Origin: Cephalotus follicularis
Lineage: Eukaryota; Streptophyta; Magnoliopsida; Oxalidales; Cephalotaceae
DNA length: 64,000 nt
Reading direction: 5' to 3'
Assembly (NCBI GenBank): GCA_001972305.1
Contig: BDDD01000268.1
Location: forward strand, 635,467-699,466
Positions 2,199 through 64,000 of the stretch are shown here, piece after piece. Position 1 is the stretch's first letter. Each line of letters starts with the position of its first letter. The notes beneath the pieces are model-generated. The model worked only from the letters and a program-made list of their open reading frames with translations, had not been told where the DNA came from and searched no databases. Both the position numbers and the translations under genes were made by a program.

Positions 2199-3195
2199 TC
2201 ATTCAATAATCTTTTTAATGTAAGTTTCTTGAGACAAACCTAGAAGTCTCTTTGAACGATCTCTGATTATTTTAACTCCGAGCACATAGCTCGCTTCCCC
2301 CATGTCTTTCATCTCAAAAGTAGAAGACAACCATTTCTGTGTGGCTACAATTAAATCCATGTCATTCCCAGCTAAGAGAATGTCATCTGGATACAAAGTA
2401 AGGAAAAGAACTTTCTCTTTTGATTTCTTTATATACATGAAATGATCCTCAGTGACCACATCATGTGATATATAAACGCAGTGGTCTTCCTCCATCATTT
2501 CAAAACCAATAGAAGTAATGAAATTATGGAACTTCAAATTCCACTGTCTAGATGCTTGTTTAAGACCATAAATAGAACGTTTAAGGCGGCAAACTTTGCG
2601 CTCTTGTCCTTTAACCTCAAAACCTTCTGGTTGAGTCATATAGATCTCTTCATCTAGCTCTCCATTGAGAAAAGCTGTCTTAACATCCATTTGGTAAAGT
2701 TCTAAATCCCGCTGTGCCACAATAACAAGGATCAAACGAAGAGAAGCAATTCTCACCACTGGGGAGAATGTATCTTCATAGTCTATACCCTGCATTTGGG
2801 TATAACCTTTCGCCACTAGGTGTGCCTTGTACTTGTCAATTGATCCATCTGCTTGGAGTTTGATATTTAATACCCATTTATTTCCAATGGCCTTACGCCC
2901 TGGTGGTAGATCAACTAATTCCCAAACATTGTTCTTGGCCATAGAATCAAGCTCTTCTTGCAGAGCTACTTGCCACTCATCACTAGCCTGTGAAGAAAGT
3001 GCTTCCCTGATAGAAGCAGACTCATCCTCACTAGATATAGCACACATGAGAATTTGATTCCCCTCAATCTCAAAATGACGACGAGGAATGTTCCCACGTT
3101 TGCTTTTACGCACTTGAGAATCCAGAATATTCTGTGGTGATACACTCTTATTATCTGGTATACTTCCACTGGATTGGGGATCACTCCTATTATCA
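2199..3195 (-). pseudogene. Copia reverse transcriptase (broken)
   Basis: The frame begins in the linker between integrase and RT (SPQNILDSQVRKSKRG) and continues through the copia RT. Recognisable blocks are the WELVDLPPG and AIGNKWV regions, VAKGYTQMQGIDYEDTFSPV, MDVKTAFLNGELDEEIYM, the YGLKQASRQW block and the catalytic tetrad. The tetrad reads YPDD where the family has YVDD. A TGA at 2199-2201 ends the frame before RNase H. Integrase and protease are missing upstream, where gag residues run directly into this linker near 3200. RT identity is secure. The Pro in the active-site tetrad and the stop argue for a dead copy. Confidence 0.92.
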
Positions 3196-3600
3196 TTAGC
3201 CAGTCATCGAGTTCTTAGGGTCTTTCTTGTACATTTCAAACTTGAGAACCAAGCTTCGGAGCCTAGTAACAGAAGTTCCCCCAAAATCAAACCTGAGCTG
3301 GTCCCACATTTCCTTAGCTGTGGCGCAGTGCTCATAAGCGCCAATAAGGTCGTCATGCATGCAGCTTAGCAAAGTAAAGCGCGCACAACGGTCCTTTTTG
3401 GACCATGTCTCAAAAACCTCAAGATCTCGACGAGATTGTGCAGTATTTCCCTCTGGTGGTATGGTCATTATGGTAGTGAGATGCTCAAAAAGTTCTTGCT
3501 CGTTAAGTAGAAAAGTCATTTTCTTATGCCAAATGTCATAATTGGTGCCAGTTAGCTTTTCTCCCTTATTAAGATCAGCAATAATGTTTTTAGTGGCCAT
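3196..3600 (-). pseudogene. Copia gag N-terminal fragment
   Basis: From the ATG at 3600 the frame reads as the capsid part of a Ty1/copia gag. It has the LTGTNYDIWHKKMTFLL block, the ATAKEMWDQLRF block and LRSLVLKFEMYKKDP, all typical of the UBN2-type gag domain. A GTG-initiated extension to 3624 is possible but ATG at 3600 is the natural start. The frame stops at 3196 without the CCHC zinc knuckle, because the deletion that removed protease and integrase starts here. Confidence 0.88.
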
Positions 3601-8982: not shown

Positions 8983-8987
8983 CATGG

Positions 8988-9627
8988 TGATATGGGGAAA
9001 ATTCGTTTTGAACCCTTTGACACGTGGCCCGAGGGGAGCGCGCCAGCTGTCTCCTACGAGAATGATGATCTGACCTATGGGTCTTGTCATCAATTAAGGG
9101 AAAGGCCTCCTCTGGCTACCCTGACACGCCACAGAGGGTAGGAGGCCGCACGTCCGCGCAGCCATAGTTGAGGGAATAGCCCATCGTCACATCAATGTAA
9201 GAAAATGGACAGACAAGCCACCAAAGCCCTCCCATTCATTAAATGGGCAGGCGGCTACGCACACCAAAGGGGGAGGAGTCCAAGGGGAATGTCAGGGCCT
9301 CTGACGCCCCCCCTAGGGGCAGCCACTCCGGATGGGACGCTCATCAATCACAAGGGACCCTATAAATACGAGAATGAAACACAATACAAAGGTCAGCCAT
9401 TTTTTCTCTTTTTCTAACAGACAAAGAGCCCATTACTCTCTGTACAACAACTGACTAGAGCTTCGGAGTGCCCCCGGGAGAATAACCTCCTGGACCCTTC
9501 TCCATTCTCTTGCTTGTGCAGGGACCATTACACAACCACCTTTCTCGGACAGATTCACGCATTCCCCAAATACAAATCACGCTCCTACACGTGGGGTACT
9601 GTTGTGGAAGAGATTTCCGCATCAACA
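8988..9627 (+). repeat. 5' LTR of Tat element 1
   Basis: The LTR is 640 bp, begins TGATATGGGG and ends CCGCATCAACA. A TATA box (TATAAATA) lies at 9361-9368, which places the transcription start near 9390. A GC-rich conserved block with a possible hairpin follows at about 9461-9495. Confidence 0.96.
9361..9368 (+). promoter_or_regulatory. TATA box of Tat element 1
   Basis: TATAAATA sits about 265 bp before the LTR end. The same box occurs in the 3' LTR (19140-19147), the solo LTR (7126-7133) and element 2 (60336-60343), each followed at similar distance by the motif AGGTCAGC, so it is conserved across two LTR families. Confidence 0.8.
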
Positions 9628-9628
9628 G

Positions 9629-9650
9629 TTGGCGCCGTCTGTGGGAAACG
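9629..9650 (+). promoter_or_regulatory. Primer-binding site of Tat element 1
   Basis: TTGGCGCCGTCTGTGGGAAA directly follows the LTR. The first TGGCGCCGT matches the complement of the 3' end of plant tRNA-Asp, but the match weakens after nine bases, so the primer tRNA is tentative. Element 2 has TTGGCGTCGTCTGTGGGAAA at the same place. Confidence 0.65.
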
Positions 9651-9672
9651 CGGCAAAAAGTCATCTAGAATC

Positions 9673-12600
9673 ATGCCTCCGAGGAAGAACCCTAACAATT
9701 ACTCCACGGCAGGTGGAAGCCAACGTACGGCGGGGAACGACCCGGCCCAAACTAGCCAAGCCCCCCTGGGTGTCGAACAAGTCCCGGTCACGGGCGAGCA
9801 GTTCAATCGCCTATTCCAGGTGGCAGAGCGCATCACCGACTTGCTGGCCACTACTATAGCCAACCAACAGCAACAAACCGGGCGTGTAGAGCAGGTGACC
9901 CGAGGAGTTTCCGACCCCAACCGACCAGAGGTGGAGGCACGGCACCCACGAAGTGCTAGGAGAAACCCGTCGAGGGGAGACGAGCTTCTCCTTGGGCGGT
10001 CAGGGGATAACAATCCCCTGGGAAGAAGACCCGAGATCAATGCATCTCGCCGGGCGGAGTCCTCGACCGCCCGGTATCAACCTAACGACCCCAGGAGAGC
10101 GCCTCCGGAGCGTCGGGCGATGGAGGTAGACCCCCAAGAGGAGGCCAGAGGCGTAGAACAGGCGCCGGCGCGCACCAACGCTTCGCGCAGAGCGGGGGCA
10201 GAGCGGGGGAGCAGGCACGACCTCACAGCCGCAGGGGCTGGGGGGTCGCGTGTCTCTAGCAGGGCCAGGAACATTGAAGACGTGGAGCATGCAATGAATA
10301 GGAGGCTTGCGGAGGTGGAGAAAAGGCTCCAAGGAGCCGAAAAACCGAAAGGATACCTGGCGGAGGTACGCAACCTCACCGCCCATCCGTTCACGGCAGA
10401 CATCATGGCAGAGCGCATTCCTAGTGGGTTTCGGCTCCCCAGTCTCGACAAATATGACGGGTCCGCGGACCCCCTCCAGCACGTCCGGACATACATCCAA
10501 ACCATGTTGGTATGCCAGGCCTCGGACGCCACGCTTTGCCGGGGGTTCCCGTCCACATTAACCGGAGCCGCCCAGTCCTGGTTCTCAGCCCTGGCCCAGA
10601 AGTCAGTAGGAGACTTTGACCAGCTTACGGAGCTGTTTGTCACCAAATTCCTGAACAGCACCACTCAGAGGCGAAACGCAACCCACCTGATCAATGTGGT
10701 GCAAGGAAGGGACGAGTCATTGAGGGACTACCTGACCAGGTTCAACAAGGAATCCCTCACTGTGAAGGACCTAGAGCCATCCTTCGCCATGGCAGCTCTG
10801 AACAACGGCCTGAGGAACAACTCCTCTTTCACATTCTCTCTCTTGAAGAGACCTACCCTGGATATGGCCGACCTGCTGAGAAGAGCAGAGAGGTATGTGA
10901 TTGCAGAGGAAGAAATGGCGGCCAGGAGACAAAAAACCCCCTGGTCGGACCATCAGGAGGAAAGAGGAGGGCACCCCCGAAATTTCCCCGGGAAAAGGGA
11001 GAGGAAGAGGGAGAGGTCAGACCTGACCAAAGACGACCTCCGGCACAAGCTCTCCAGGAGGGAAGGCGCGGCTCAGGGGGGAGCGCCCGCCCCTTCCTAT
11101 AATCACTTTGCCCCCCTCCTGGACACCCACACCAAGATACTGGCCGTGGAGCAAGACAAGGTCCCCATTCAGTGGCCTGAGAAGTTGAGGTCCCCGGCAG
11201 AGGCAAAGGATGTGGAGAAATACTGCCAGTACCATCGCGACCATGGGCACGATACCGAGGGATGCAGACAGTTGAAAAATCAGATCGAGGATCTGATCCG
11301 GATGGGGCATTTGCGCAAGTACGTGGACAGGGAAACTCCTAGAGGAAGGAGGGAGCAAAGGAGAGAAGAGGCTCCCCGTCGGGGGGAAGAACCGCAGCAA
11401 AAGCCCAGGGGAGTTATCCACACCATCTCTGGGGGGGTCGCCTCCGGCGGAGACCATAAGAACGCCCGGAAGGCTTATGGGAGACAATCCCTGGCGGTGC
11501 AGCAGGTCCACCACAACAAGAGGCTGAGGACTGGTGGAGATGAGGAGGTAATATCCTTCTCCGAGGTGGACTACGAGGGAGTACGCCTCCCTCATGACGA
11601 TCCAGTGGTAGTGACCCTCATGGTAGAACTTTTCACCACAAAGAGGATCCTGATTGACAGTGGCAGCTCGGCCGACATCCTGTACAAGCACGCCTTTGAC
11701 CAGTTAAAGATACCCGTCGACCAGCTGAAGCCTGTAAAGACCCCTCTTGTCGGATTCGCAGGAGAAATGGTTAATCCCCTAGGGTCCATCGACCTGTCAG
11801 TAGTGGCAGGCACGGCTCCTCGCCAAACCCAGGTGCATATGACTTTCCTGGTAGTCGACAGGCCCAGCCCATACAACGTTATAATTGGGCGCCCGGGGCT
11901 GAACATGATGGAGGCGATAGTGTCCACGAGGCACCTGCTTATGAAATTCCCCACGAGATTTGGCATAGGAGAAGCCAGAGGGGACCAGCAGGCGGCCAGG
12001 CAATGTTATAAGACTGCCGTTGCGGACCGTGGGAAAGAAAAGATCCTCCTCATCACCAATGTGGAGCTCAGGGGGGACGTCGAGCCTGAACGCCCGAGTC
12101 CCGTAGAAGACGTGGTCCAAGTGCCCCTAGAAGTGGGCGACTCCGAGAAAGTCTTCCAAGTTGGTTCACACCTCGGAGAGGCGGAGCAGGGGGAATTGAT
12201 AGCATTCCTCCGGGGCAATAGAGATGTCTTCGCCTGGTCCGCGGGGGAGGTCCCCGGGATCAACCCAAGCGTGATAACTCACAGATTAAGTGTAGATCCC
12301 GCAAGGACACCGACCAGACAGAAGAAGAGGAACTTTGCCCCCGAGCGCCAGCAAGCAATAGCCGACAAAGTAAGCAAGCTTATGCAAGCAGGGTTCATAA
12401 GGGAGCTACATTACTCAGACTGGCTGGCGAACCCCGTCCTAGTAAAAAAGGCGAATGGCAAGTGGAGAATGTGCATTGACTTCACGGACCTCAATAAAGC
12501 TTGTCCAAAGGATCACTTCCCCCTTCCAAAAATAGATCAGCTGGTGGATGCAACCTCGGGCTACAGGATGCTAAGCTTCTTGGACGCTTATTCGGGGTAC

Positions 12601-15327
12601 AATCAGATTCCTATGCACGAACCCGATGAAGATAAGACAGCCTTTATCACCGACCGGGGGATGTATTGTTACAAGGTCATGCCCTTCGGCTTGAAGAACG
12701 CAGGGGCCACTTACCAACGGCTGGTCAATAAGATTTTTGAGCCCCAGATCGGGAGGAACATGGAGGTTTATGTTGATGACATGCTAGTCAAGACCCCGGG
12801 CGGGAGCCCCCACATCAAAGACCTGGGGGAGACGTTCGAGGTTCTAAGAAGGTACCAAATGAAACTCAACCCCTCTAAGTGCACTTTTGGGGTCTCCTCG
12901 GGCAAGTTCTTGGGGTTCATGGTTTCCGACAGAGGAATAGAGGCCAATCCGGAAAAGATCTCGGCGGTCCAAGAGCTAAGGCCCCCCCAGACTATCAGGG
13001 ATGTGCAAAAGCTAAGTGGGAGGATAGCGGCCCTGAGTCGGTTTGTCTCGAAGTCGGCGGAGAAATGTCTCCCGTTCTTTAGGGTGCTGAGGGACCCCAA
13101 GGGGTTTTCTTGGTCAGATGAGTGCCAAGCAGCTTTCGAAAAGCTGAAGGAGTACCTAGCTTCACCGCCCCTGATCTCGAAGCCTAAGGATGGCGAAAAT
13201 CTATATTTATACCTTGCTGCCGCTCCGGGGGCCGTGAGCGCTGTACTGGTCAGAGAGGAAGAGCAAGTTCAGAGGCCGGTGTACTACGTGAGCAAGGCGT
13301 TGAACGACGCCGAGGGGAGGTACCCGGAGGTAGAAAAGTTCGCCTATGCACTGATCATTGCGGCCCGGAAGCTGAGGCCGTACTTTCAAGCTCACTCAAT
13401 CAAGGTTTTGACCGACCAGCCGCTCCGGTAAGTCCTTGCAAGGCCTGACACCTCGGGCAGACTGGTTAAGTGGTCGATAGAGCTGGGCGAATATGATGTG
13501 AAGTTTGAGGCCAGACCAGCGATCAAGTCACAGGTCTTGGCTGACTTCGTTGGAGATAATACGCCCACGGAGTGTATGGAGGAGAACCCCTCAGAGAGCG
13601 AGAGGGAGACCTGGAGGTTATCTGTAGACGGCTCCTCCTGCCTCACGGGCAGCGGCGCGGGTGTGCTCCTGGTAAGTCCAAGTGGGTGGACGTTGGAGTA
13701 TGCCCTGAGATTTGCTTTCAAGGCCACAAACAACGAAGATGAGTGGGAAGCCCTCATAGTCGGGCTGACAATAGCAAAGCACCTGGAGGTACGGAGGATT
13801 GAGGCCTCCAGCGACTCCCAGCTAGTGGTCGGCCTGACCAGTGGAGAATACGAGCCCCGAGAGGAGTCGATGGTGAAATACTTATCACACTTCCAGGGTT
13901 TGAAGCCTACTTTTGAAGCCCTCAGTGTTACGAAGATACCCAGGGCGGAAAACGCCCGGACAGACCAGCTATCCAAACTGGCCACGGCAGGGGAGCTGGA
14001 AAGGAACCAGACCGTAATGGTACACTACCTGGACAGGCCAACCATCTCTGTAGCAGATGTCATGGACGTGGACATACCACGGGAGTCGAACTGGATGACC
14101 CCCTTTATATATTGGCTGAGGGACGGAGTCTTGCCCGAAGACCCCGCGGAGGCAAGAAAATTGGTGTACAGAGCAAACGGATTTCAACTCCGTGGGGAGA
14201 TTCTCTACAAGAGATCTTTTTCATTCCCTTGGCTGAGTTGCCTGGCTCCACAGGAGGCCGATTACGCTCTAAGGAAGGTCCACGAAGGGGTATGTGGCAA
14301 CCATACTGGGGGCAGGACGTTGTCCCACAAGCTGGTGAGGCAAGGCTACTATTGGCCTACCCTGCACCAAGATGCAGTCGATCTAGTGAGAAGATACGAC
14401 AAGTGCCAGAGGAATGCCAACGTAAGCAGAAGACCTTCCCAACCCCTGACATCCATAACGGCCCCCTGGCCCTTCGCGCAATGGGGGATGGATTTCGTAG
14501 GGCCACTTCCAATGGCCACGGGCCAGAGGAAGTTCCTCATCGTGGCAGTAGATTATTTCATCAAGTGGGTAGAGGCGGAGCCCCTGGCCACCATCACAGA
14601 AAAGAACACGGAAAGTTTCGTGTGGAAGTCCATCGTCTGCAGATTCGGAGTCCCCAGGATCATAGTTTCAGATAATGGGAAACAGTTTGACTGCCAGGCT
14701 TTCCGTGACTTTTGCCAAGAATGGAGAATAGAGCATAGACTCGCCTCAGTGGCCTACCCTCAATGCAATGGCCAAGCAGAGGTAATAAATAGAGAAATCA
14801 TTTCGGGCTTGAAAAAGCGCCTGGAGGACAGCAAAGGAAGATGGACGGAGGAGCTACCGAGCGTTTTGTGGGCATACAGAACTACTCCCCGGACAACCAC
14901 GGGGGAGTCCCCTTTCAGTCTTTGCTTCGGGGCGGAGGCCATGGTACCTGTGGAAATTGGTGTCCAGTCACCAAGGGTCGTGCACTTCACAGAACAGAAT
15001 AATGAAGAGGGACTCCGGTGCCTTCTCGACCTAGTAGGAGAACTCAGAGACAAGGCCGCCATCAGAGTCGCAGCCTACCAGCAGAGGGTGAGCCGTTACT
15101 ACAACAAGAGGGTGAACCCCAGACCGCTGCAGCAGGGGGACCTGGTCCTGCGTAACTCCGCGGTCTCAGACCCCACCGGGACAGGAGGGAAGCTAGCCCC
15201 TGCCTGGGAAGGGCCATACAAGATCACCAGAGTACTCCGGCCCGGAACATTCAAACTTGAAACTCTAGGGGGGAGGGAGATTGCCAGAGCTTGGAATACC
15301 GAGCATCTGAGAAAATATTACCAATAG
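9673..15327 (+). pseudogene. Tat-type gag-pol polyprotein, one in-frame stop
   Basis: One frame runs from the ATG at 9673 (MPPRKNPNN) to 15327, broken only by TAA at 13429-13431 in RNase H, where related elements have a Lys. The upstream part of the frame (to 9514) lies in LTR and primer site, so 9673 is the start. Domains: gag (about 10440-10900), zinc knuckle (CQYHRDHGHDTEGC, 11224-11265), aspartic protease (IDSGSSADILY, about 11653), RT with VDDM at 12772-12783, RNase H (about 13190-13430), a second archaeal-type RNase H (about 13615-13985, SVDGSS and SSDSQLV), and integrase. In integrase the DDE residues are intact (14551, 14671, 14779), followed by a GPY-type C-terminus. The first Cys of the HHCC zinc site is Tyr (14395-14397, TAC). 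No other frameshift is seen. The sequence is far more GC-rich than its surroundings. Confidence 0.95.
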
Positions 15328-16360: not shown

Positions 16361-16380
16361 TTTTATTGATAATTGAAAGA

Positions 16381-17680
16381 TTACAGTACAAAAGAAAAGA
16401 AAAAATTACAAGGTAAGCCTAGGCCTCGTCCCCCCTGGGCCCCTTCAGCCTCCCTGGCCTCCGCAGCTAGGGTCTGGGGCAACTCCTGAAGTCTCGCCCT
16501 CGCATCCGCGCGCGCGGCCGCCCTCCTCTCTGACGCCCTTCGCGTCTTTTCCAGGGCCTTCCGCCTTCGCTCGGCATCTCTCCGCTGGGTCTCAGGGTCC
16601 TCGGACTGGCCCTCCTCGCGCCTGGCCCTCAGCAGCTCCATTGCAGAGTTTGGTCGGGCCATCTCTGCACAAGCAAAAGGGAAACAGTTAGACACAGAAA
16701 AAATAAACGCATTTGCAAAAATAAACTAGTCCTAGGAAAAGCATAGTACGGCTCTCTCCCGGCAGGACCGCGGAGGTAGCGGCTCCCCCCTGGCTGCCCT
16801 GTCCTCTCTCTCTCTGCTGCGTCCCCTGGCCCCTCTCCTCTTCATCCAACTCCAGACTGACCCGGCGGCCCACGGACATGCTCAGCCCATGCCTCCACAG
16901 GCGGCCCTCTGACACGACCTTCTCCACTTCCTCCGGCCCCAGGGCTGAGAGCCTCGTCGCGCCCTCAGCTTCCTCCCTGGACAGATATGACCTCTGGTTC
17001 AGCCGCCCGATGTCCAGGGAGTCTGCCCAAGGGCACAGCGTGAAGCCCGGGAGGTTCCTGACTAGAAAATACTTTTTCCTCCAACGCTTGATGGATTTGT
17101 TGTTCTCGGCCAGCAGTCGGGGGCGGCCCGGACGCGACTTGAAGTGGAAGCCACGCTTCTTAGGGGTGGGGGACACGGTGTGGAACTCCTTGAATAAACC
17201 TACGGTGGGTGTCACCCCTGCTTCCATGCACCGCACAAGGAAGCCCACGATGAACCCCCAGGACTGAGCCTGCAGCATGGAGGGGTGGATCTGGTATTGT
17301 CTTAGGACTGCGATGGCGAACGGGTGCAGGGGGAGCCTAAGTCCGTGCTCCAAGGCGTCTTTGAACACCACGAAGTGCCCCGTCCGGCTCACAGTGGCAT
17401 CCCGGGGGTCAGCTGGAATCTCCAAGTCCAGCCCGCCAGGGATGGCGTACTCCTTGACCAGCTACGCCAGTCTTTCTGGGCGCATGGAAGACTCCTCAAA
17501 ATCGGCCCGGAAAACATGGACCCCGGCCCCAGTGGCCTCCACATTAGGGTTCCCGGCAGCGGAGGCCCCCATCTCCACCTCCATATCTAGGGGCCGGACT
17601 GCCACCGTAACCCCCTCAGAAGCACGGGCGATCGCTTCAGGGCCTCGAACGGGCATCCTCGTCTGCTTTGTTCTCGCCAT
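16381..17680 (-). pseudogene. Antisense extra gene (aORF) of Tat element 1, spliced, one nonsense codon
   Basis: Transcribed opposite to pol. The ATG at 17680 (MARTKQTRMPV) opens a frame that reads to 16750. A GT at 16749-16748 and a strong acceptor (TTTTGCTTGTGCAG ending at 16665) define an 85-nt intron that joins in frame to 16664-16381. The product would be about 404 residues apart from one TAG at 17464-17462. The central part (HFVVFKDALEHGLRLPLHPF to GFIVGFLVRC, then KRWRKKYFLVRN) matches the Pfam family called putative gypsy-type transposon (Transposase_28), as I remember it. The C-terminal exon is Arg/Glu/Ala-rich and probably coiled-coil (about 16640-16450). Upstream are a TATA box and an 83-nt leader intron (17767-17685), and AATAAA lies at 16367-16362. 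Extra antisense ORFs are known in Tat elements, and their role is unknown. Confidence 0.8.
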
Positions 17681-17684
17681 TAGG

Positions 17685-17767
17685 CTGCCAGAGAGAGAGG
17701 ACGATGAGGATGAGGTGGTCATAGGAAGGTTCGAACGGAGGGAAGAGCTAAACAGAGGTAGGCTCAC
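17685..17767 (-). other. Predicted 5'-leader intron of the antisense gene
   Basis: On the minus strand the segment starts CAAG|GTGAGCC and ends after a pyrimidine tract with CTCTCTCTGGCAG, five bases before the ATG at 17680. Length is 83 nt. No ATG lies in the leader portion I read between the TATA box and this intron. Confidence 0.6.
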
Positions 17768-17889
17768 CTTGCTTCTTGCTTTCTGGGGAGGATGAAGGTA
17801 AGGGTTCTTGGAGATCTGGAGCTTTTTTCTCTCTCTAAGGTTTTTAGGGATTAGAGGTGCGTAAAGAGACTCTTTGGGGAAGAGAGGGG

Positions 17890-17897
17890 TATTTAAA
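17890..17897 (-). promoter_or_regulatory. Candidate TATA box of antisense gene
   Basis: The minus strand reads CCTTTAAATACCCC here, about 120 nt upstream of the predicted leader intron and 210 nt upstream of the ATG at 17680. Spacing and context fit an independent pol II promoter inside the retroelement. Confidence 0.55.
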
Positions 17898-18211: not shown

Positions 18212-18694
18212 GTCACCTGGCCTGCCCAGGCACGCTCAACGCGTCAGCCCGGGAGGAGCCCGCGGCCTAGTCCCAATCCTTCACCTGGCCTGCCCAGGCA
18301 CGCTCAATGCGTCAGCCCGAGAGGAGCCCGCGGCCTAGTCTCAAATCCTTCACTTGGCCTGCCCAGGCACGCTCAACGAGTCAGCCCGGGAGGAGCCCGC
18401 GGCCTAGTCTCAAATCCTTCACCTGACCTGCCCAGGCACGCTCAACGCGTCAGCCCGGGAGGAGCCCGCGGCCTAATCTCCAATCCTTCACCTGGCCTGC
18501 CCAGGCACGCTCAACGCGTCAGCCCGGGAGGAGCCCGCGGCCTAGTCTCCAATCCTTCACCTGGCTTGCCCAGGCACGCTCAACGCGTCAGCCCGGGAGG
18601 AGCCCGCGGCCTAGTTTCGACCCTTCACCTGGCCTGCCCAGGCACGATCGATGCGCCAGCCCGGGAGGAGCCCGCGGAACGATCCCAATTCCTC
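18212..18694 (+). repeat. Seven-copy 68-69 bp tandem repeat in Tat element 1
   Basis: Seven head-to-tail units start with TTCACCTGGCCTGCCCAGGC (the first with GTCACC). They carry CGTCAGCCCGGGAGGAGCC and end near CTAGTCTCAAATCC. Units 4 to 6 are nearly identical and the last is most diverged. Each unit contains the short inverted repeat CCTGG-CCTGC-CCAGG. Such minisatellites just before the 3' LTR are known for Tat/Ogre elements and can seed satellite DNA. Here they also lie upstream of the antisense promoter. Confidence 0.93.
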
Positions 18695-18765: not shown

Positions 18766-19406
18766 TGATATAGGGAAAATTCGTTTTGAACCCTTTGACA
18801 CGTGGCCCGAGGGGAGCGCGTCAGCTGTCTCCTACGAGAATGATGATCTGACCTATGGGTCTTGTCATCAATTAAGGGAAAGGCCTCCTCTGGCTACCCT
18901 GACACGCCACAGAGGGTAGGAGGCCGCACGTCCGCGCAGCCATAGTTGAGGGGATAGCCCATCGTCACATCAATGTAAGAAAATGGACAGACAAGCCACC
19001 AAAGCCCTCCCATTCATTAAATGGGCAGGCGGCTACGCACACCAAAGGGGGAGGAGTCCAAGGGGAATGTCAGGGCCTCTGACGCCCCCCCCTAGGGGCA
19101 GCCACTCCGGATGGGACGCTCATCAATCACAAGGGACCCTATAAATACGAGAATGAAACACAATACAAAGGTCAGCCATTTTTTCTCTTCTTCTAACAGA
19201 CAAAGAGCTCATTACTCTCTGTACAACAACTGACTAGAGTTTCGGAGTGTCCCCGGGAGAATAACCTCCTGGACCCTTCTCCATTCTCTTGCTTGTGCAG
19301 GGACCATTACACAACCACCTTTCTCGGACAGATTCACGCATTCCCTAAATACAAATCACGCCCCTACACGTGGGGTACTGTTGTGGAAGAGATTTCCGCA
19401 TCAACA
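18766..19406 (+). repeat. 3' LTR of Tat element 1
   Basis: The LTR is 641 bp. Compared by eye with 8988-9627 it shows nine substitutions, all transitions, and one extra C in a C-run. The TATA box at 19140-19147 points toward ORC2, whose start codon is 640 bp beyond the LTR end. Confidence 0.96.
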
Positions 19407-19632
19407 CATGGTAATGAGACCGTTAGAGAATTTTAATTATATTTAAAATTGATATCATATAGATTATCAAATAAAATAATTAAATTTATAACGTATAACT
19501 CATAATCATACTATTATCTAAACTCATAATTATATCATTTTTAGGTGATTTATGATCAATTTACTGTTTTAAAGTGATCTATCGTCGACCTCTCGTTGAG
19601 CATATTAAATTTTTGTGACACAAATGAAAAGC

Positions 19633-29685: not shown

Positions 29686-30158
29686 ATTAACGAAAATTAT
29701 AAAATACAATACTACCCTTATATTAAAAAATCTGCGCTTAATGTGTTTTAAATCAATAAAACACTTTAATTTCAGAAAAACGCACTCAAGCACACCTAAG
29801 CCAAAATTTGTCGTTGGTGATTTCACTTCAATGAAATGAAACCATATAACTTCGTCATCGGTGATTCACTTGATATTACGTTGATTCACTCTACATTCTG
29901 TTACTGTAACTTCACCGAAAGCAAGGGTTGACAAGAGTCGATCGCAACGTTAGCAGAAGTTCATCGAGGTAAGGGTTTTTCTTCACCTTCTATGATTTTT
30001 TTTTAATTTAATTAGTAATGTCAATTTTTTTCTCCACATTTTGAATTTCAAACTCATAGAAACCATTATTAAGCCTCATAATAGTTTTATAAAAACCTAG
30101 GTAAATTGGGAGAAACCAAAATTTGAAAAGTATAAATGTGTTCTATATAGGTTTGACA

Positions 30159-31634
30159 ATGCTGCACAAGATCATTCTATTTTTTGGAGCCGAGAAACAA
30201 GGGCGTCCAATTAATTATGTGGATCCAGATTACTTCTACTACCTTATTCTACTGTCTGAGATTTTTGCTATCATGGGCACTAAACATGTAAGTGTCGTTA
30301 TTCGGTCTACTGATGATTTGGTTGTTAAGGATGATAAAACTTTAATGCACTTGTTTGAAATGCATAATGGGGTAGAGGAAATAATATTGTTTGTTGAGGA
30401 AAACAAAGATGAAAGTGTGGATTTTATAATGCCTCCAGAATGGGATATAGAAAAAAGTGTAGAAAACTGTGAAGATGTTGATGATGCTAGTAGTAATATG
30501 GGTGAGCATAATGTTGGGGATGTGGGAGATATTAGGACTGACAAGGGCAAAGATATTGTGAATGATGACAGTAGGGTAAGGGTAGAAAATAATGTGGTAG
30601 ACAATGACCCTGGAGATGCTGATGTAGAACCAGAGGACATGTATGGATTCTCTACTGATGATGATGACAGTGAGTGGTTTGCATCTGAGGAAGATAGTGT
30701 TGGTTGTAGTGAATCAAGTGAAGATGTCAATGATGTTATGGATGAGAGTAGGGGTAGAAGTGATGACTATTTTGATGTATACCAATCTAATGGATCTGTG
30801 GATCCATTGAGTAGTGATGAAGATGGTGATGAAAGGGTAAGAAGGAAGAGATTTGATTATAGATATAAAGAGGAGGTCAAAGTTTTTAAACCAAGACCAG
30901 ATGGTAGGATAGAATTTAAAACAGGGCATATTTTTGGGAATGTGCAAGAATTTAGAGATAAGTTATCACAATATGCTATTCAAAATGGATATAACTTGAA
31001 AAAAAGGCCAAATGAACCACATAGAATAACTTCTACCTGCATGGGTGATGGATGCAAATGGAGAATGCATGCCTCTGTTTTAAGTGATGAAAATACATTT
31101 ATGGTAAAAACCATGAACCCCTTGCACAATTGTTCTAGGCCTCTGAACATTAAAGTAGCAAACTCAACTTGGATAGCTAATCAATTGGATGATCTACTGA
31201 AAGCTGATCCAAATATGAGTTATGAGCTTATGCAAGAGACTCTAGCTAAGTTGTACAATGTTAATGCACATCCTAAGCAACTGTATAGAGCTAGAAAAAA
31301 AGCATTGGAGAAAAATGAAGGGAAACACAGTAAGGCATACTCATATTTGTATAATTATGCAAATCTGATTAAGGAAACAAATTCAGGATCAATTATAAAG
31401 TTTGGGTTTGAGACTATGCAAGAGGATTATGTAGGGCTTCCAAAATTTCAGAGGATGTTCATTTGTTATGAAGCTTCAAAGAGATGATTTCAACAAGGAT
31501 GCAGGCCTTTTATTGGTTTAGATGGATGTCATCTCAAGGGCCCATATGGTGGGATTCTCCTCTGTGCAATTGCATTAGATGGAAACCAAGGACTGTTTCC
31601 TGTTGCTGAGTGCAGGGATGGTGGAACCCAATAG
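30159..31634 (+). pseudogene. MULE transposase, truncated and with a premature TGA
   Basis: The frame opens with ATG at 30159 (a TTG at 30123 is in frame) and runs to TGA at 31485-31487. It then continues in the same frame to TAG at 31632-31634. The N-terminal half has an acidic Asp/Glu-rich segment, then the MudR DNA-binding region (FKTGHIFGNVQEFRDKLSQY, about 30916-30975) and a zinc-binding block (CMGDGCKWRMHASV to NPLHNCSR). Beyond the TGA, GCRPFIGLDGCHLKGPYGG is the start of the MULE transposase catalytic domain with the first acidic residue. The stop falls where the family usually has Gly, so one GGA to TGA change explains it. The rest of the DDE domain and the SWIM zinc finger are missing, so this copy cannot make active transposase. 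Confidence 0.88.
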
Positions 31635-39416: not shown

Positions 39417-42400
39417 TAGGGGTGTTTATATGGGTAAACCGAGCCGCAATTTTTTACGGTTCAGTTTTACTGTTTTTCGGGTCCAAAAATCCCAACCCAC
39501 ACTCGAACCGCACTTGGAGTTTGAGTTGCGGTTACCCGCCCCAAACTACAATGCGGTTTTCAGGTATTACGGGTAAAACCCGCATTTTTAAACTTTAAAT
39601 TAAAATTATTAAATTAATACAAAATTTTTAAAACTAAAAATCTAATACTTAATACTCTATCTAATTACATCAAATACTACTCAAATAATCCAATTATTCA
39701 ACAAATGATCACCAATTACACCTATTAAATCGACAAAGATACTGACTCTAAAACATGAGAACAAATTGAACCTGTTTATTTTGTATTCGTTGTATATTAA
39801 AACATTCAACAAGAAATGGACTCAACATGAAAACAACTAGCAAAATTGAACACTAGCAGACTCAATATATAGTGAACATGAACCAAAGAGTCAACATGTT
39901 TCCTGTTTCCAAGCAAATCATATATACAACTATATAGTCAACAACTCAACATGAAAACAAATACAACAACATCAACATTTGTGAAGAATTTCAATACTAG
40001 CAAACTCAATAGTCAATAACTTAGCCTATTACCATGTACCAATTATACCAACTATATAATCTAACCAAATGAAAATTGTGCACTCCAATCCTGACTTTCA
40101 AGAACAAAGTAGAGTAGCAAACTAACAGTACACCTATGTTAGTCTAACAAATTGAAAATTACAGAAGTATCAAACCACCATATAGCAGTACCAATTACAT
40201 TAAATAGCAAAATACATCATTTCATTCAAAACAATAGCAAACTAAACCACCAATATTACATTGAAGCAAATCCAAGCAATCCCAAGTTCCAAACTTCAAA
40301 TTAGTCCATCATCGGTGCTGAAGACAACTCCCCAAAATCAGAAAATTTAAAGAAAAAAAAGTATAAAAGAATTATCAGTAATAATAACAAGCGTGTAGCG
40401 GTTATTTGAAATTAAATATACAGTTGAATAACTAATAACAATGCAAAAATATAAAAATTACAAATATCAAACTTTTCAAGATCCTCTAAAACTTATTCAA
40501 CATTGATTCGTTGTGAAGACCGAAGCCAATCTTGAGAGCATATGAGAGATTCAACAATGGTAGGAGTCAAAGAGCTCTAAATGAATCGAGCACAAGTCCT
40601 CTAGTGCTAAATGCAAACTCTGAAGCAACAGTGGAGATGGGAATGACCAATACATGTCTAGCCATGCGTAAAAGGATAGAAAATCTAAGGCTATGTACTT
40701 TCCACCAGCATAAAATATCAAAGTCCTCAACATCCTTCTCGATTGTTTCATTAAGATAACTATCCTATTTTGTTTTGGTAGGAACATCATCCGACGTATT
40801 AATTTGAGAAATAAATATAGTCGTTGGATCCCTATCATCTTCATCATGGATTATATAATCCATCATCACACTTGAGCTTGATTGGTCACCTACACTTCTG
40901 AGTGTTCGAGGCATAGATCTTCTCATATTCACAAAATAAAGATTTAACAATATCTTCAACTTTCTTTATCATCTCATTTTTCAACTCATCTTCATTTTCA
41001 TACATTTTTGATAAACCAAACTCTACAAACTTCATCTTTCGCCTTGGATCAAGTACAACCCCAACATGAATTAGGAAATTCATCTTCTTCGGGTTCCCCC
41101 AATATTTTTCATACTTGACCTTCATTTTTAAAGCCATTGACCTCAACTTATAATCTCCAATTTCAATCCACCTATTCAAAAGGCAATACACCCTGCAAAT
41201 CTCATTAAAGTAAATATTTGAGGTGACAAATAAAGAACCCAAAACACGTACAATGAGCTTATATAGGCTCTCTAAAAACTTCACCATCCTCTCAACATTT
41301 CTCCAATATTCCTCACTAGGTCTTCCCTTATCATTCATCCTCCCACTGACATTCACATCATCAAACTTTTCAAGCTTGATCCTATACAAAGGATCTAACA
41401 GATCAAACCTATCAAATGCTTCCCGAAATTTTAAAGCAGTATTTAACATTAAATAGGTTGAGTTCCACCTAGTAGACACATCTAGACATAACAACCATTT
41501 ACTTTCAATTTGTAGAAGCGGGACACACTCCTTAAACTTTTTCAATCGAGCTGGAGAATGTCTCACATATCTCATAGCCACTCTAACTCGAGTCACGGAC
41601 TCATCCGTCCACCACTACAAGATTAATAATGTGGGTTACACATCTCATATGAAGGAGTAGCTTGTTCAAAACATTAGTACCCCAACTACGAAACCTGTCT
41701 TTCAAATAATTAATAGCAAGGTCATTGGATGAAGCATTATCTACAGTAATAGTCATCACTTTCCTAATTCCCCAATCCATCAAACACTTCTCAATAGTCA
41801 TTCCAATATCTTCACCCCTATGACTAGAAATTGGACAAAAGTTAAGAATCCTTTTGTTCAATTTCCATTGATCATCAATGAAATGAGCTGTTAAACACAT
41901 GTAGTTGATCCTTTGCAAGGACGTCCACGTGTCTGTGGTTAGGCAAATTCTATCACAAGACAATTTCAAAAAATTTTACAATTTCAACTTTTCATTCAAA
42001 TACAATTGATAACAATCTCTCGTCAGAACCTTAAACCATGGTGCTATCACAGCTATCAACTGTCTAAACCCTTCACTCTCGACAGATTTAAATGGAAGCT
42101 CATCAATTATTATCATACGAGCTAAGGCATTTCTAGCAACATCTTGATCCATCTTCCAATTACTAAGTGTGCTACCTGTATAGCTCTCAATCACTCGGTC
42201 AATAGGTTTAAGACTCAATATGGCTTGGGTCTTTTCTAAATTTGGGACGGTATTTTTTGCAAGTCCTAATATGAGCCTTAAGAGAAGAAGTACCATGTGT
42301 GTGTGTGTGTCAGTTGCATAATCCCTCTCACAATAATTACACATTGCTTTCATCCTCCCATCACTATGTCTATACTTTGAAAAGTGAAGTCATACCTCAG

Positions 42401-47576: not shown

Positions 47577-50500
47577 CTATAATTTATCTAGCGCCTTAAT
47601 TTTACCATAAATTTCATACAAGTTAATCTGTCTTGTAGGATTCTCCCATGTGAGTAGTTCTCGTACTTTTTTCTCGATCTTAATTGTTTCTCTTATCAGA
47701 TTACCCATGCAGAAACCTAGGCTACTCAAACAAAGAACCGTTTGGCACTTGAACTTCTCCTCATCTTTGATATCGATAATTCTGTTAGATAATTCCTTCA
47801 AATGTAGAGAAAAGGAAGTCATAATCTCCTTGGCTTCTTCTTCTAGATCCAAATTCCTGAAAAAATCAGCATTTGGTGATTTCCCCAACTCAATATCTTG
47901 AGATACGTTTTTCGTTTGCATCTCCTTTTCAACTTTATCAAGGGACTTAATCGAAACCACCACTTTGAGGCATTTCAACAAATACCCAACTTTTCCCTTG
48001 ACACGCGCAAGATCATCATTTAGGAGTTCTTGTTGCTTCGTCCAATCATTTCCAAACCTTCGTGACATTTGTGAGAGTGATTCACATTCATAAACGATAA
48101 AAGCTAGGATATCCACCATCTTTGACAAAGATCCCAGGAGCTCACGATGACAAGCACCATGGAAAGGATGGAACCAGAAATTAGGCTCCGACTCAGCTTC
48201 TGCAATGAACGTCTCTAATTTATTGACATGGGATTTCAGTCTCCTATGCTTTTCTCTTATTGGCAGACAGTTTGCAGCTGACATATTTTTTCCTTCGACT
48301 CCAAGAACTAAGCCTCCAATGCACTCTTCGAGCACCCCTAAGCATTTTGAAACTTCAGCTTTTGCCAGGCTAGAGGCTCTTGCACGGTGCAAGAGGATCT
48401 CAACTGTGATAAAACAGATTAATCCGATTGTAGCCTCCGTTATTCTCGTGATTGCAAACTCGCTAGGAGTGCCGTAATTTTTCCTACCCAAGATTAGTAA
48501 TGCCCCAATTACTGCTGCAATCCCACCAGATTGGCCGTACATCCTGCTATGCCTTAGGAGACTAGTGAATATGATCCATGGTAGAAGAGGTAAGAACCTT
48601 AAATCCTCAAATCCTTGGAAAATAAAGCAACATAAGATACCATAGACTGATCCCATTGCTGTCCCTTGTGCTCGGCTATTTGCAACTGTAAAAGTCGCTT
48701 GTCGTCTTGTCACGAAGCTAATGGCTATCGTGAGTCCTGACCAGTATCCATTTTTTTTGTTATATATCAAGCCAAATAGCACAGCGAGACCCAAGGAAAG
48801 TGAACACTTGAATGCAAAAACCAAGCTTTCACTACTTAGATTCATCATCAGATTGCTCCAGCCCTTTTTGAACCCAGACTTTTCATGCGGCTGTTCGCGG
48901 GAATCAGATTTCTGTGTAGTCTTTGAAATTGAGTCGGGTTTTCCAGATATTGGGTCATCTTGGAGAAGTGTCATACAGTAAACAACAAAGAAAGCTGGTA
49001 GATCTTCATGGGTTGCGGACATGGCTTTGCGGGTCCAAAGGGACCCATCCAAAAGTTCTTCCTTTATCTCTGGTGCTGTTGTTGAATCGAAGGGAGCAAA
49101 TCGCTTGGCTTGCTCTAGTTTAAGGCCAATTTTAACTTTTGTACTTAGTAAAAAATCTTTAAGCTCCAGTTCAAGCATGCCAGCAGCCAAGGAAGGGAAA
49201 GAAGTTAGTGCAATTTCCATCCCTCTTATTGGTATCTCAATGCCTTCCAGTTTAAGTCCCGGGTCCAAGCGATTTGGCTTTAACAACCTGATCTGTGGTC
49301 TCTCCCATAGCATACCTTCCTATTCACAAGGAAATGACATTCTTTAGCTAATTGTACAAGCAATGCTCAACTGCAGATTGAGACTTGCATCCTATAGGTC
49401 AGAATATATGTCAACTACCTGATTTTTCTTGATGCTTTGAAGATGCTTGGCTCCTGTTTCAGAAATGAGCTTTGATTTAAAGACGAAATCAAGTGCAGTT
49501 GGATTGTCTTGGGCGGTGAAAGCCTTCACTAAGAGATTCAACCTCTCGCTAGCATTTTCAGCATATAATCGGCATGTTTTGCTGACCTGTGTGGTAAAAA
49601 ACATTGTCAATTACCCATTGTCATTAATAATTTTTTATTAGTAACAGTCAATTTAATCCTCATTTGGTACTGTTTTTGAGTTATTAAATTACTCAAAAAC
49701 AATGGCATTTAATGTTTGGTAAAAAACAACTCAATTGAGTTTGGATAAAATTATTTTTATTTTTACCTATAAAAAAACACTTTTCTATCATATACAAATG
49801 TATTGATTGTGAAAGTGTTTTTTACATATCCACATTTTCATGTCTTTAATGTAATAATTTGATACCAAATACATTTTCACTATTTTTATTTACAAAAGTG
49901 TTTTCGGTTGTCGAATTTATCAAACGATTTCAATTTTGTCAAAAGTACTTTCACCCAATATTTTTTGTGAAATAAACAGTAGAACTAAACAGACGCGTAA
50001 CATTAGTAACATGATTTTTTGTTGGACTTGTTTTAGATAAAGAAATCCATATTACTTATGCTCAAATGAGTATTGATGTTTCAAATTTCTTGTTGTGGGA
50101 GAATAACATAATATTTATACTGTTTTAGAAAATAATGGCATGTGACGTACCATTAAGCTGTCACACCACGAAAATAGGTTGACGGTGGATTTACGTGAGT
50201 CAGCTTGGAAACAAACATTGTCCTAAATCCGACTTTATAAATTGGATTAATTCTTCTTGTCTACCAACACGCCAAAAGTTGAAAAGTATCAGTCAAATCC
50301 CTCTCTCTTTAGGAGCAGGAGATGCCGCGATTTGCAGTACACACTACACTCTTTAGGCATAAAGTGCACTATGCCTTGTGCTTAATTGAGAATGGTGAAG
50401 GATAAATCGAAAGTTGATCAATCATAACATTCAGGCTCTTGTTTTTTATACACAATAGCTCTAGTGGGTCCGTTATTCCAAATTACTGTCCATCACTTTG

Positions 50501-59690: not shown

Positions 59691-60595
59691 TGATATGGGA
59701 AAAATAAAGTTAAATAAAAAACAACACGTGTTCTCATCCGAGCACCGCCAGGTGTCCAGATGAATGATTGATCCGTTAGTCAATAAAGCAATAATAGGAG
59801 GACTCCTCCTCGGCATAAGTGCCGAGGACACACCTGGTGGTTCCAGTACGAAGGTCATTCTCCTCGGCATAAGTGCCGAGGACCAGCCCAATAATTGCCA
59901 TGCAAAGTTTATCCTCCTCGATGCCAAATCCGAGGACACCTTCCGAAGCACTACTGCCGAGGACCTCCTCGGCTACATGACAAGAGACCACTCTCCTCAA
60001 GTGCAAGTCTATGGACTTTGAAGACTTTTAAACCAAGGACTGTGTCATTAGCCTCACTTCAACTCCTCTCCTTGGCGGATCATTGACAGGAGGTATCCTC
60101 CTCATTTACGAAATGAGGCCATAGAGTTAGCCTAAATTCCAGGGATTCTTATCTTCCAAGTATAGAAGATAAGATAAGGATGACGACCATAAAGGAAAGG
60201 AGATAGTTTAGGAGAAGATGAAGGAAAGAAGAGATAATTCAGGTGGAGATAAGGGAAATCCTGAGATCCTCGGAATTTCCCTAGGGGATATCTACAACCT
60301 CCATTTTTCACGCTCTAACAGTTACCAAATACCACTATAAATACAAGTTCAACAGACTGAACAAAGGTCAGCAATTTTTACATTCAAAAGAACCTTATTT
60401 CCTCTGCACTTTGTCTAACTTGAGCGTCGGAGTGTCCCCGGGAGAACAACCTCCTGGACTTTCCACTATTTTTGTTACCTTGTGCAGGGATCCGAGATCA
60501 AAAACTTCCTCAAGGCATTAGTGACAAGCGTTTCTCTTAACAAATAAAAGTCCTCCACGTAGGATACTGTTGAGAGAAGAATTTCTGTATCAACA
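59691..60595 (+). repeat. 5' LTR of Tat element 2
   Basis: The LTR is 905 bp and ends GTATCAACA. U3 contains perfect palindromes CCTCGGCATAAGTGCCGAGG at about 59809-59828 and 59862-59881 and related half-sites to 59972. The TATA box is at 60336-60343. Confidence 0.95.
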
Positions 60596-60596
60596 T

Positions 60597-60616
60597 TTGG
60601 CGTCGTCTGTGGGAAA
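60597..60616 (+). promoter_or_regulatory. Primer-binding site of Tat element 2
   Basis: TTGGCGTCGTCTGTGGGAAA follows the LTR at the position of the element 1 primer site, with one C-to-T difference in the first ten bases. Confidence 0.6.
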
Positions 60617-60640
60617 CGCAACAAAAAGTCATCAACAACC

Positions 60641-63600: not shown

Positions 63601-64000
63601 GACAGCATTCATAACAGACCGAGGAATGTACTGCTACAAGGTCATGCCTTTTGGCTTGAAGAATGCAGGGGCCACCTACCAGCGTCTGGTCAACAAAATT
63701 TTTGAACCTCAGATTGGGAAGAATATGGAGGTGTACATAGACGATATGCTCGTCAAAACCCCTGCCAGGAACCCCCATGTGAAGGATTTGGAGGAGACAT
63801 TTGAAGTGTTGAAGAGGTACAATATGAAGCTCAATCCATCCAAGTGTACATTTGGGGTCACCTCGGGGAAGTTCCTCGGATTCATGGTCTCTAGCAGAGG
63901 AATAGAGGCAAATCCAGAGAATATCTCAGCTATTCAAAGTATGAGGCCACCTCAAACCATCAGGGATGTCCAGAGGTTAAATGGGAAGTGTAGAAAGTCT
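60641..64000 (+). pseudogene. Tat-type gag-pol (partial), one in-frame TGA in gag
   Basis: The ATG at 60641 (MPPRKNN) opens a frame interrupted once, by TGA at 61292-61294. The same frame then stays open to the window edge. Homology to element 1 is continuous across the stop. Visible domains are gag (about 61395-61870), zinc knuckle (CRYHRDHDHDTEEC, about 62186, with Gly replaced by Asp), protease (LDSGSSADILY, about 62616) and RT with IDDM at 63737-63748. The end of RT, both RNase H domains, integrase and any antisense gene lie beyond 64000. Everything seen except the TGA is intact, so this is a recently damaged copy or one polymorphic at that codon. Confidence 0.93.

Follow-up and report, generated by a model that had tools for sequence, protein, structure and literature searches.

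Can a retrotransposon that is copied through RNA keep a gene that is split by spliceosomal introns? The question is raised by a stretch of 64,000 nt of the Cephalotus follicularis genome (contig BDDD01000268.1 of assembly GCA_001972305.1, positions 635,467-699,466; hereafter the window), in which an element that fits the Retand type of Ty3/gypsy retrotransposons carries a gene on its antisense strand, between pol and the 3' long terminal repeat (LTR). From the window alone, this gene had been predicted to be complete, with its own promoter, a leader intron, an exon with a transposon domain, a second intron, a coiled-coil exon and a poly(A) signal. The motifs do lie where that prediction put them: TTTAAATA at 17897-17890, AAG/GTGAGC at 17767 (the slash marking the splice position), a CAG ending at 17685, a GT at 16749, a CAG ending at 16665, a TAA at 16383-16381 and AATAAA at 16367-16362. 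Comparison with other copies leads to another gene model: very probably, two conserved introns divide the family gene, of about 818 codons, into three exons, and the window holds a decayed copy of it. The further intron and the third exon, which the earlier model lacked, have both been lost from the window. It is the structure of the gene at the family level that is of interest, while the single copy in the window is an ordinary relic.

All conclusions on the antisense gene rest on sequence comparison among its copies, which come from the same genome as the window. A search of this genome with the antisense gene gave 3257 first-look candidates, 40 of which were scored. The near set comprises all 39 other long matches among those scored, 89-97% identical to the window, and the diverged set 20 copies, 80-84% identical, taken from 150 scored, giving 59 other copies for comparison. 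Two scans of viral_contigs and one of genome_contigs returned no relatives outside the genome itself.

Does the antisense frame encode a protein at all? It contains a Transposase_28 domain (TRP28, PF04195), and a codon model trained on the gag-pol of the element gives z scores of 3.8 and 7.9 for two parts of exon 1 and 4.0 for exon 2, with a score of about zero for the proposed leader intron. Nucleotide diversity at the three codon positions in 40 near sequences is 0.051/0.034/0.141 for 17680-17465 and 0.039/0.045/0.135 for 17461-16751. The ratios of nonsynonymous to synonymous substitution rates (dN/dS) between near and diverged copies are given in Table 1 (780 pairs for exon 1 and TRP28, 721 pairs for the start of exon 2); among near copies, they are 0.17 for exon 1 and 0.13 for TRP28. 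These patterns support the view that the antisense frame is a protein gene under purifying selection. An open frame produced by chance opposite a sense-strand gene has in its favour that the mirrored plus frame contains one stop in 1071 nt and has a positive codon-model z; however, the Pfam match falls on the minus strand only, and the minus frame comes out ahead in both codon-model score and dN/dS. We consider this explanation refuted, its remaining probability being close to nil. The sense-strand open reading frames (ORFs) at 16725-17795 were likewise rejected as a gene, having no Pfam match and weaker codon and dN/dS signals.

The TRP28 domain is predicted to bind DNA, according to PMC11963269. 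A phmmer search of solved structures returned four weak matches, the best of which (E 0.0066) spanned 35 residues and fell on a WD-40 repeat protein. A structure model of the domain from 27 aligned sequences reached a predicted local distance difference test score (pLDDT) of 69.9 and a predicted template modelling score (pTM) of 0.74, but Foldseek matched it to nothing in either PDB or BFVD at E <= 0.001; the model made without an alignment (pLDDT 39) was too poor for use.

Exon 1 is followed by intron 2, the second intron of the original prediction, which is borne out by the copies. The GT of its donor, SD2, is present in 38/39 near and 17/20 diverged copies (55/59), and the AG of its acceptor, SA2, in 37/38 near and 19/19 diverged copies (56/57, as one copy in each set is without the region). 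The length varies from 80 to 96 nt, with frame classes of 17/20/20 among the 57 copies, and identity in the diverged copies is 0.655 in the middle of the intron, 0.967 at the donor and 0.823 in the branch-acceptor part. Intron 2 therefore combines the GT, AG, branch site and frame-free length variation of a spliceosomal intron. Of the 7371 AGs in the window, SA2 alone, with its CTAAC and the GC step on its exon side, shows three features together, all three having been chosen after the site had been seen. As for the donor, most of 16759-16739, a block of 21 nt that straddles SD2 and is purine-rich on its exon side, is nearly invariant in the diverged copies, and two four-fold third positions at SD2 are T in 59/59 copies, compared with 9/174 invariant sites of this kind in exon 1. 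On the strength of this block and of the two invariant positions, we take SD2 to be a real, weak donor. The block itself could possibly be a splicing enhancer or a signal of the genomic RNA.

What the window no longer shows can be read from full copies. In these, exon 2 runs for 693 nt from the ATG at 16662 and is followed by a further intron (intron 3) and an exon 3 of 789 nt (coordinates of copy L039). Intron 3 was assessed in 41 copies with good flanks, three copies (L021, L045 and L052) being dropped for a flank identity below 70% and the remaining 15, which are without the flanks, being left out of the counts. It has GT in 39/41, AG in 39/41 and GTAAGC or GTAAGT in 34/41 copies, with lengths of 54-88 nt and frame classes of 16/11/14. 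Identity by codon position is 0.892/0.909/0.748 in exon 2 and 0.901/0.916/0.771 in exon 3; it is flat in intron 3 (0.836/0.856/0.862), and the 3' untranslated region is likewise without a codon pattern. Could the exons instead be separate, unspliced antisense ORFs, of the kind catalogued in PMC11963269, with the T-rich stretches between them being coding or mere spacer? Exon 2 has an ATG of its own and eight of the 59 copies are open across intron 2, which would suit such an arrangement, but the lengths of introns 2 and 3 vary by non-triplets through all frame classes, GT, branch-like site and AG are conserved, and no codon pattern runs through intron 3. We therefore give separate ORFs little credence and keep to the split gene.

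Added up from the start codon M1, the exon lengths of this split gene make a reading frame of about 818 codons. Exon 3 appears, by eye, to hold a long coiled-coil-like region. Near its C-terminus lies a motif, EYDF-P-GVE, that is common to the distant family L073, and the basic motif TKRPRT occurs in exact form in 23 of the 38 copies aligned there without a gap and in near-exact form in most of the others. Pfam matched nothing at E <= 1 on exons 2 and 3 of L039. The coiled coil had originally been assigned to exon 2; there it did not hold up, as the remnant in the window is charged and alanine-rich, with a simple heptad count of 0.27-0.36 and no clear register. The frame closes at a family stop column, 16421-16419, which is TAG in 32/40 aligned copies.

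Why, then, did the window copy look complete? Its stop at 16383-16381 and the end of its exon 2, and hence the 3' end as first drawn, are artefacts, created at 16434 by the private loss of about 1.36 kb, which took most of exon 2, the whole of intron 3 and nearly all of exon 3. Homology between near copies and the window breaks at or near 16434 in most of the 39, and for 21/39 the fetched stretch also contains the point where it picks up again, at or close to that base: 1.34-1.43 kb later in L011, L018, L024, L035 and L037 among others, and after a shorter gap elsewhere. A probe spanning the deletion junction matches the window alone in this genome. At the junction, the homologous segments meet or overlap by one base inside a G-rich run, much as template switching or slippage would leave them. 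Different internal deletions of the same exons are seen in L017 and L028, among other copies. Exon 1 of the window is in addition interrupted by an in-frame amber codon (Table 1), found at that codon in 0/59 other copies. The domain of the predicted exon is thus confirmed and its uninterrupted frame is not; judged by these two lesions, the gene of the window has been destroyed by amber codon and deletion, and what is left is a decayed relic.

The 5' part of the gene needs a larger revision. Translation had been thought to start at the ATG at 17680, just behind a leader intron at 17767-17685. This ATG is present in 54/59 copies and missing from 5/20 diverged ones. The likely start codon M1 at 17722, in frame and better kept (Table 1), lies inside the supposed intron. 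Between M1 and 17680, diverged copies read MTTSSSSSSLSGNP or similar. The 14 codons from M1 have a dN/dS of 0.35 between and 0.18 within subfamilies, with about 12 synonymous sites; their distinct variant codons are synonymous in 14 cases and not in 17, and 8 of the 13 variant codons found in at least three copies are synonymous. Most likely, translation starts at 17722 and the stretch 17722-17680 is coding, to be read with moderate confidence as the stretch is short.

The leader intron is half supported. Its donor, SD1, is conserved, ranking 4/158 among the 9-mers of the leader and scoring among the top 2% of GTs in the window with rounded splice-site weights; its acceptor, SA1, reads AA in 19/20 diverged and 5/39 near copies, and the leader lacks the conserved pair of GT and AG that marks a spliceosomal intron. 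Four near copies (L022, L024, L026 and L037) share the loss of SA1 and an exon 1 length of 928 nt, which suggests that elements without SA1 have kept transposing. Conservation of splice sites among related copies had been set beforehand as the test of the predicted gene, and SD1 and both sites of intron 2 came through it while SA1 did not. A model with the leader intron, a start at 17680 and a complete window copy can still point to the strong donor, to the AG in most near copies and to the widespread ATG at 17680. It is contradicted by the AA of the diverged copies, by the ATG at 17722 that all 20 of them keep, and by the amber codon and deletion of the window; as a family-wide feature it is already refuted, and we regard it as improbable.

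One further candidate at this position was rejected. The residues after the ATG at 17680 (17660-17680, minus strand) read ARTKQT, the start of histone H3, with the next R in 33/39 near copies, and RTKQT is almost invariant across 60 sequences. Mimicry of the H3 N-terminus is unlikely, as the ATG at 17722 is better kept and that at 17680 is missing in 5/20 diverged copies. It is further disfavoured by the replacement of A by V, P or E in 9/60 sequences and by distant families that read ARAKQT or ARLIQT.

The predicted core promoter fared well. A TATA-like motif alone is not beyond chance, since 280/2000 shuffles of the region contain one, but in the 20 diverged copies the TATA box is the most conserved block of 17950-17681, with identities of 0.84 and 0.76 in its flanks. 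Downstream, CTTTACGCA is the top 9-mer of 17889-17723 in the diverged copies (mean identity 0.978), and the spacing from the TATA box to 17866 corresponds to the usual distance between a TATA box and a transcription start; the SD1 sequence is the next conserved block of the untranslated leader.

Are the introns older than this family? Five loci of distant TRP28 families in the same genome (L069, L070, L071, L073 and L075; domain identity 26-45%) were compared; three others fetched alongside them (L068, L072 and L074) proved to belong to the same family as the window copy. At the place corresponding to intron 2, L069, L071 and L075 (3/5) have a T-rich stretch that ends like an acceptor, L073 has AA instead of AG, and in L070 no such stretch was seen.

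But what is the use of a conserved donor without a conserved acceptor nearby? SD1 may serve in alternative splicing, and the reading we favour for its conservation is a long alternative intron that runs from SD1 to SA2: joined to SA2, it would give a message for the exon 2-3 protein alone, while SD2-SA2 splicing would give the TRP28 fusion. SD1 is kept in 58/59 copies though SA1 is kept in only 35/59, and SD2 is weak and yet embedded in the mostly near-invariant block of 21 nt. Joining SD1 to SA2 would put the leader 2 nt before M3, an ATG at 16662-16660 in exon 2 that is kept in 55/57 copies, and distant loci L069, L071 and L075 have an ATG 2-8 nt past their acceptor. On the other side, a probe for the SD1-SA2 junction found no match in the genome, the Met of M3 is unexceptional (rank 17 of 75 exon-2 codons in conservation) and SD1 is not clearly recognised in the distant families. 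We put this extension of the split gene forward tentatively, as something rather less probable than its absence. With slightly more reserve still, one may imagine the antisense ORFs of Retand elements as exons of one ancient, alternatively spliced unit, in which SD1 competes with SD2 for SA2, giving the TRP28 fusion and, with its start 2 nt past the splice, a shorter protein, like retroviral accessory genes.

Several observations weigh against the split gene and have to be set against its support. SD2 fits the plant consensus poorly, 80% of the GTs in the window scoring as high with the same rounded weights. Only 25/59 copies have an exon 1 that stays open and in phase between M1 and SD2, and constraint on the beginning of exon 2 is weaker among near copies (dN/dS 0.30). 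The copies open across intron 2 (7 near, 1 diverged) leave room for an unspliced reading, although such openness can happen whenever the intron length is a multiple of three. AATACA replaces the poly(A) signal in 10/33 aligned copies. The mirrored sense frame is fairly open, with a codon-model z of 5.6 and a dN/dS of 0.27, a signal that we read as the probable shadow of the antisense frame. The case for transcription and splicing themselves is made from conservation; probes for three spliced junctions had no match in the genome, which speaks neither for nor against splicing.

How might such a gene work? At the family level, the TATA promoter lies between the tandem repeats and the gene and faces backwards, and RNA polymerase II would transcribe an antisense message towards pol. 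From this, the two intron-like stretches would be spliced out, joining three coding exons: one with TRP28, one basic and charged, and one that looks rich in coiled coil and has a conserved C-terminus. The gene closes at the conserved stop, usually followed by AATAAA. The protein, carrying a TKRPRT-like motif, may enter the nucleus and act on the DNA or chromatin of the element. Its most likely role would be regulation of the element's own cycle, as the authors of PMC11963269 and PMC7264820 suggest. The introns would survive through their antisense position, since the genomic RNA does not present their splice signals; the original prediction had argued in this way that introns placed antisense escape removal from genomic RNA, and its logic is supported here. 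The family would then show how a retroelement can retain spliceosomal introns through RNA-mediated copying, namely by keeping the gene on the strand that its genomic RNA does not display. Conserved introns also change the annotation, turning antisense ORFs from separate frames into exons, and a split gene would account for the joint occurrence of TRP28 with other antisense ORFs. The exact splice junctions supplied here are testable with long-read RNA.

Antisense TRP28 genes and their own promoters are already known, and what is of interest here is the split structure of the family gene. Antisense ORFs occur in all recently active Retand elements surveyed by Vicient (2025, PMC11963269), and all clusters but two encode TRP28, in agreement with the original remark that extra antisense ORFs are known in this lineage. 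Like the gene of the window, these ORFs are antisense, lie between pol and the 3' LTR in a long 3' internal region and carry the PF04195 domain, and about half of the elements have tandem repeats, as does the element here. They are listed by length, and the word intron is absent from the text of the paper, whereas in our family TRP28 and what lies downstream of it have the look of exons from a single split gene, with its two conserved introns and conserved leader donor. The gene23 of the maize element Grande (Gomez-Orte 2013, via PMC7264820) is also antisense between pol and 3' LTR, with its own promoter and a nuclear product. PMC7264820 calls for a search for spliced antisense transcripts. 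Among the matches listed from the open literature, which covered neither the Grande paper of 2013 nor that of 2011 on extra ORFs in Tat elements, we recognised no description of introns in antisense TRP28 genes.

More distant systems show parts of the same arrangement. The human T-cell leukemia viruses HTLV-2, -3 and -4 (PMC8622228, PMC11963269, PMC7264820) have an antisense accessory gene with a spliced message at the 3' end of a retroelement, and nuclear products are known for the deltaretroviral HBZ and APH-2. However, the proteins are different as far as known, and the HTLV antisense promoter is in the 3' LTR while that of the window element is internal. Ogre, also of the Tat lineage, has a spliceosomal intron as well (PMC6317226), but that intron separates GAG-PROT from RT and belongs to the sense strand. 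In certain group I introns, an antisense homing endonuclease gene is likewise interrupted by spliceosomal introns (PMC9548176), in a system that differs in element class, host and protein.

What kind of element hosts the gene? A target duplication of 5 bp, CATGG, flanks it, and its domains follow the order RVT_1, RT_RNaseH, RVT_3, Integrase_H2C2 and rve, with a second RNase H (aRH) between RNase H (RH) and integrase, the mark of Retand that is shared with Ogre according to PMC6317226; the protease gave a weak match only. The sense intron between GAG-PROT and reverse transcriptase (RT) that characterizes Ogre is absent, as gag to RT/RH form one open frame, 9418-13431. The antisense TRP28 between pol and 3' LTR (PF04195, minus strand) is again as in Retand. 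The LTRs of 640-641 bp, the internal region of about 9.1 kb and a distance from pol to 3' LTR of about 3.4 kb even after the deletion lie within the Retand ranges of PMC11963269 (315-1194 bp, 7.4-12.9 kb and 2.9-6.6 kb, often with tandem repeats), and the tandem repeats are present too. By domain order and structure, the host fits a Retand-type (Tat) Ty3/gypsy retrotransposon. Its gag-pol is broken by an in-frame TAA at 13429-13431, just past the RNase H domain.

The LTRs have diverged by K of about 0.016-0.019. With the rice substitution rate of 1.3e-8 per site per year, the insertion would be roughly 0.6-0.7 million years old.

Table 1. Features of the antisense gene and of its host element in the window (dN/dS between near and diverged copies).
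Feature	Position	Strand	Observation
TATA box TTTAAATA	17890..17897	-	exact in 36/39 near and 20/20 diverged copies
Start-site-like block CTTTACGCA	17858..17866	-	31 nt downstream of first base of TATA box
Leader 5' splice site SD1, AAG/GTGAGC	17762..17770	-	GT in 58/59 copies
Likely start codon M1	17720..17722	-	ATG in 58/59 copies, 20/20 diverged; inside proposed leader intron
Leader acceptor SA1	17685..17686	-	AG in 34/39 near, 1/20 diverged (35/59); not conserved
Exon 1 (N-terminus and TRP28)	16750..17722	-	dN/dS 0.19 for 17680-16751; TAG at 17464-17462 in window
Transposase_28 domain (TRP28, PF04195)	17171..17371	-	E 6.9e-13; dN/dS 0.13
Intron 2	16665..16749	-	donor SD2 GCC/GTACTA, branch-like CTAAC 16691-16687, acceptor SA2 TGCAG
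Exon 2 remnant, about 230 of 695 nt	16434..16664	-	codon-position conservation; dN/dS 0.21 (start of exon 2)
Junction of the deletion, with the last exon 3 codons	16419..16434	-	junction unique; family stop position 16421-16419, out of frame in window
AATAAA poly(A) signal	16362..16367	-	AATAAA in 22/33 copies aligned there
5' LTR	8988..9627	+	target duplication CATGG at 8983-8987; 98.4% identical to 18766-19406 over 641 columns
gag-pol open frames	9418..15327	+	gag, RT, RH, second RNase H, integrase
69-bp tandem repeats near 3' LTR	18213..18677	+	6.8 copies, 93% matches
3' LTR	18766..19406	+	target duplication CATGG at 19407-19411

Elsewhere in the genome, two copies of the antisense gene (L041 and L042) share a contig and an orientation and are separated by about 400 bases, through either tandem duplication within an element or nested insertion. 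The window itself contains a second, related element at 59861-64000, which runs off its end; identity is 74% along 3.7 kb that reach from the end of the LTR into pol, and 6615-7385 matches 59861-60595, apparently LTR sequence. The other content of the window, at 2199-3203, 30105-31487, 40886-41614 and 47577-49319, consists of a copia RT fragment, pieces of MuDR and hAT transposases and a gene for a FUSC-family membrane protein.

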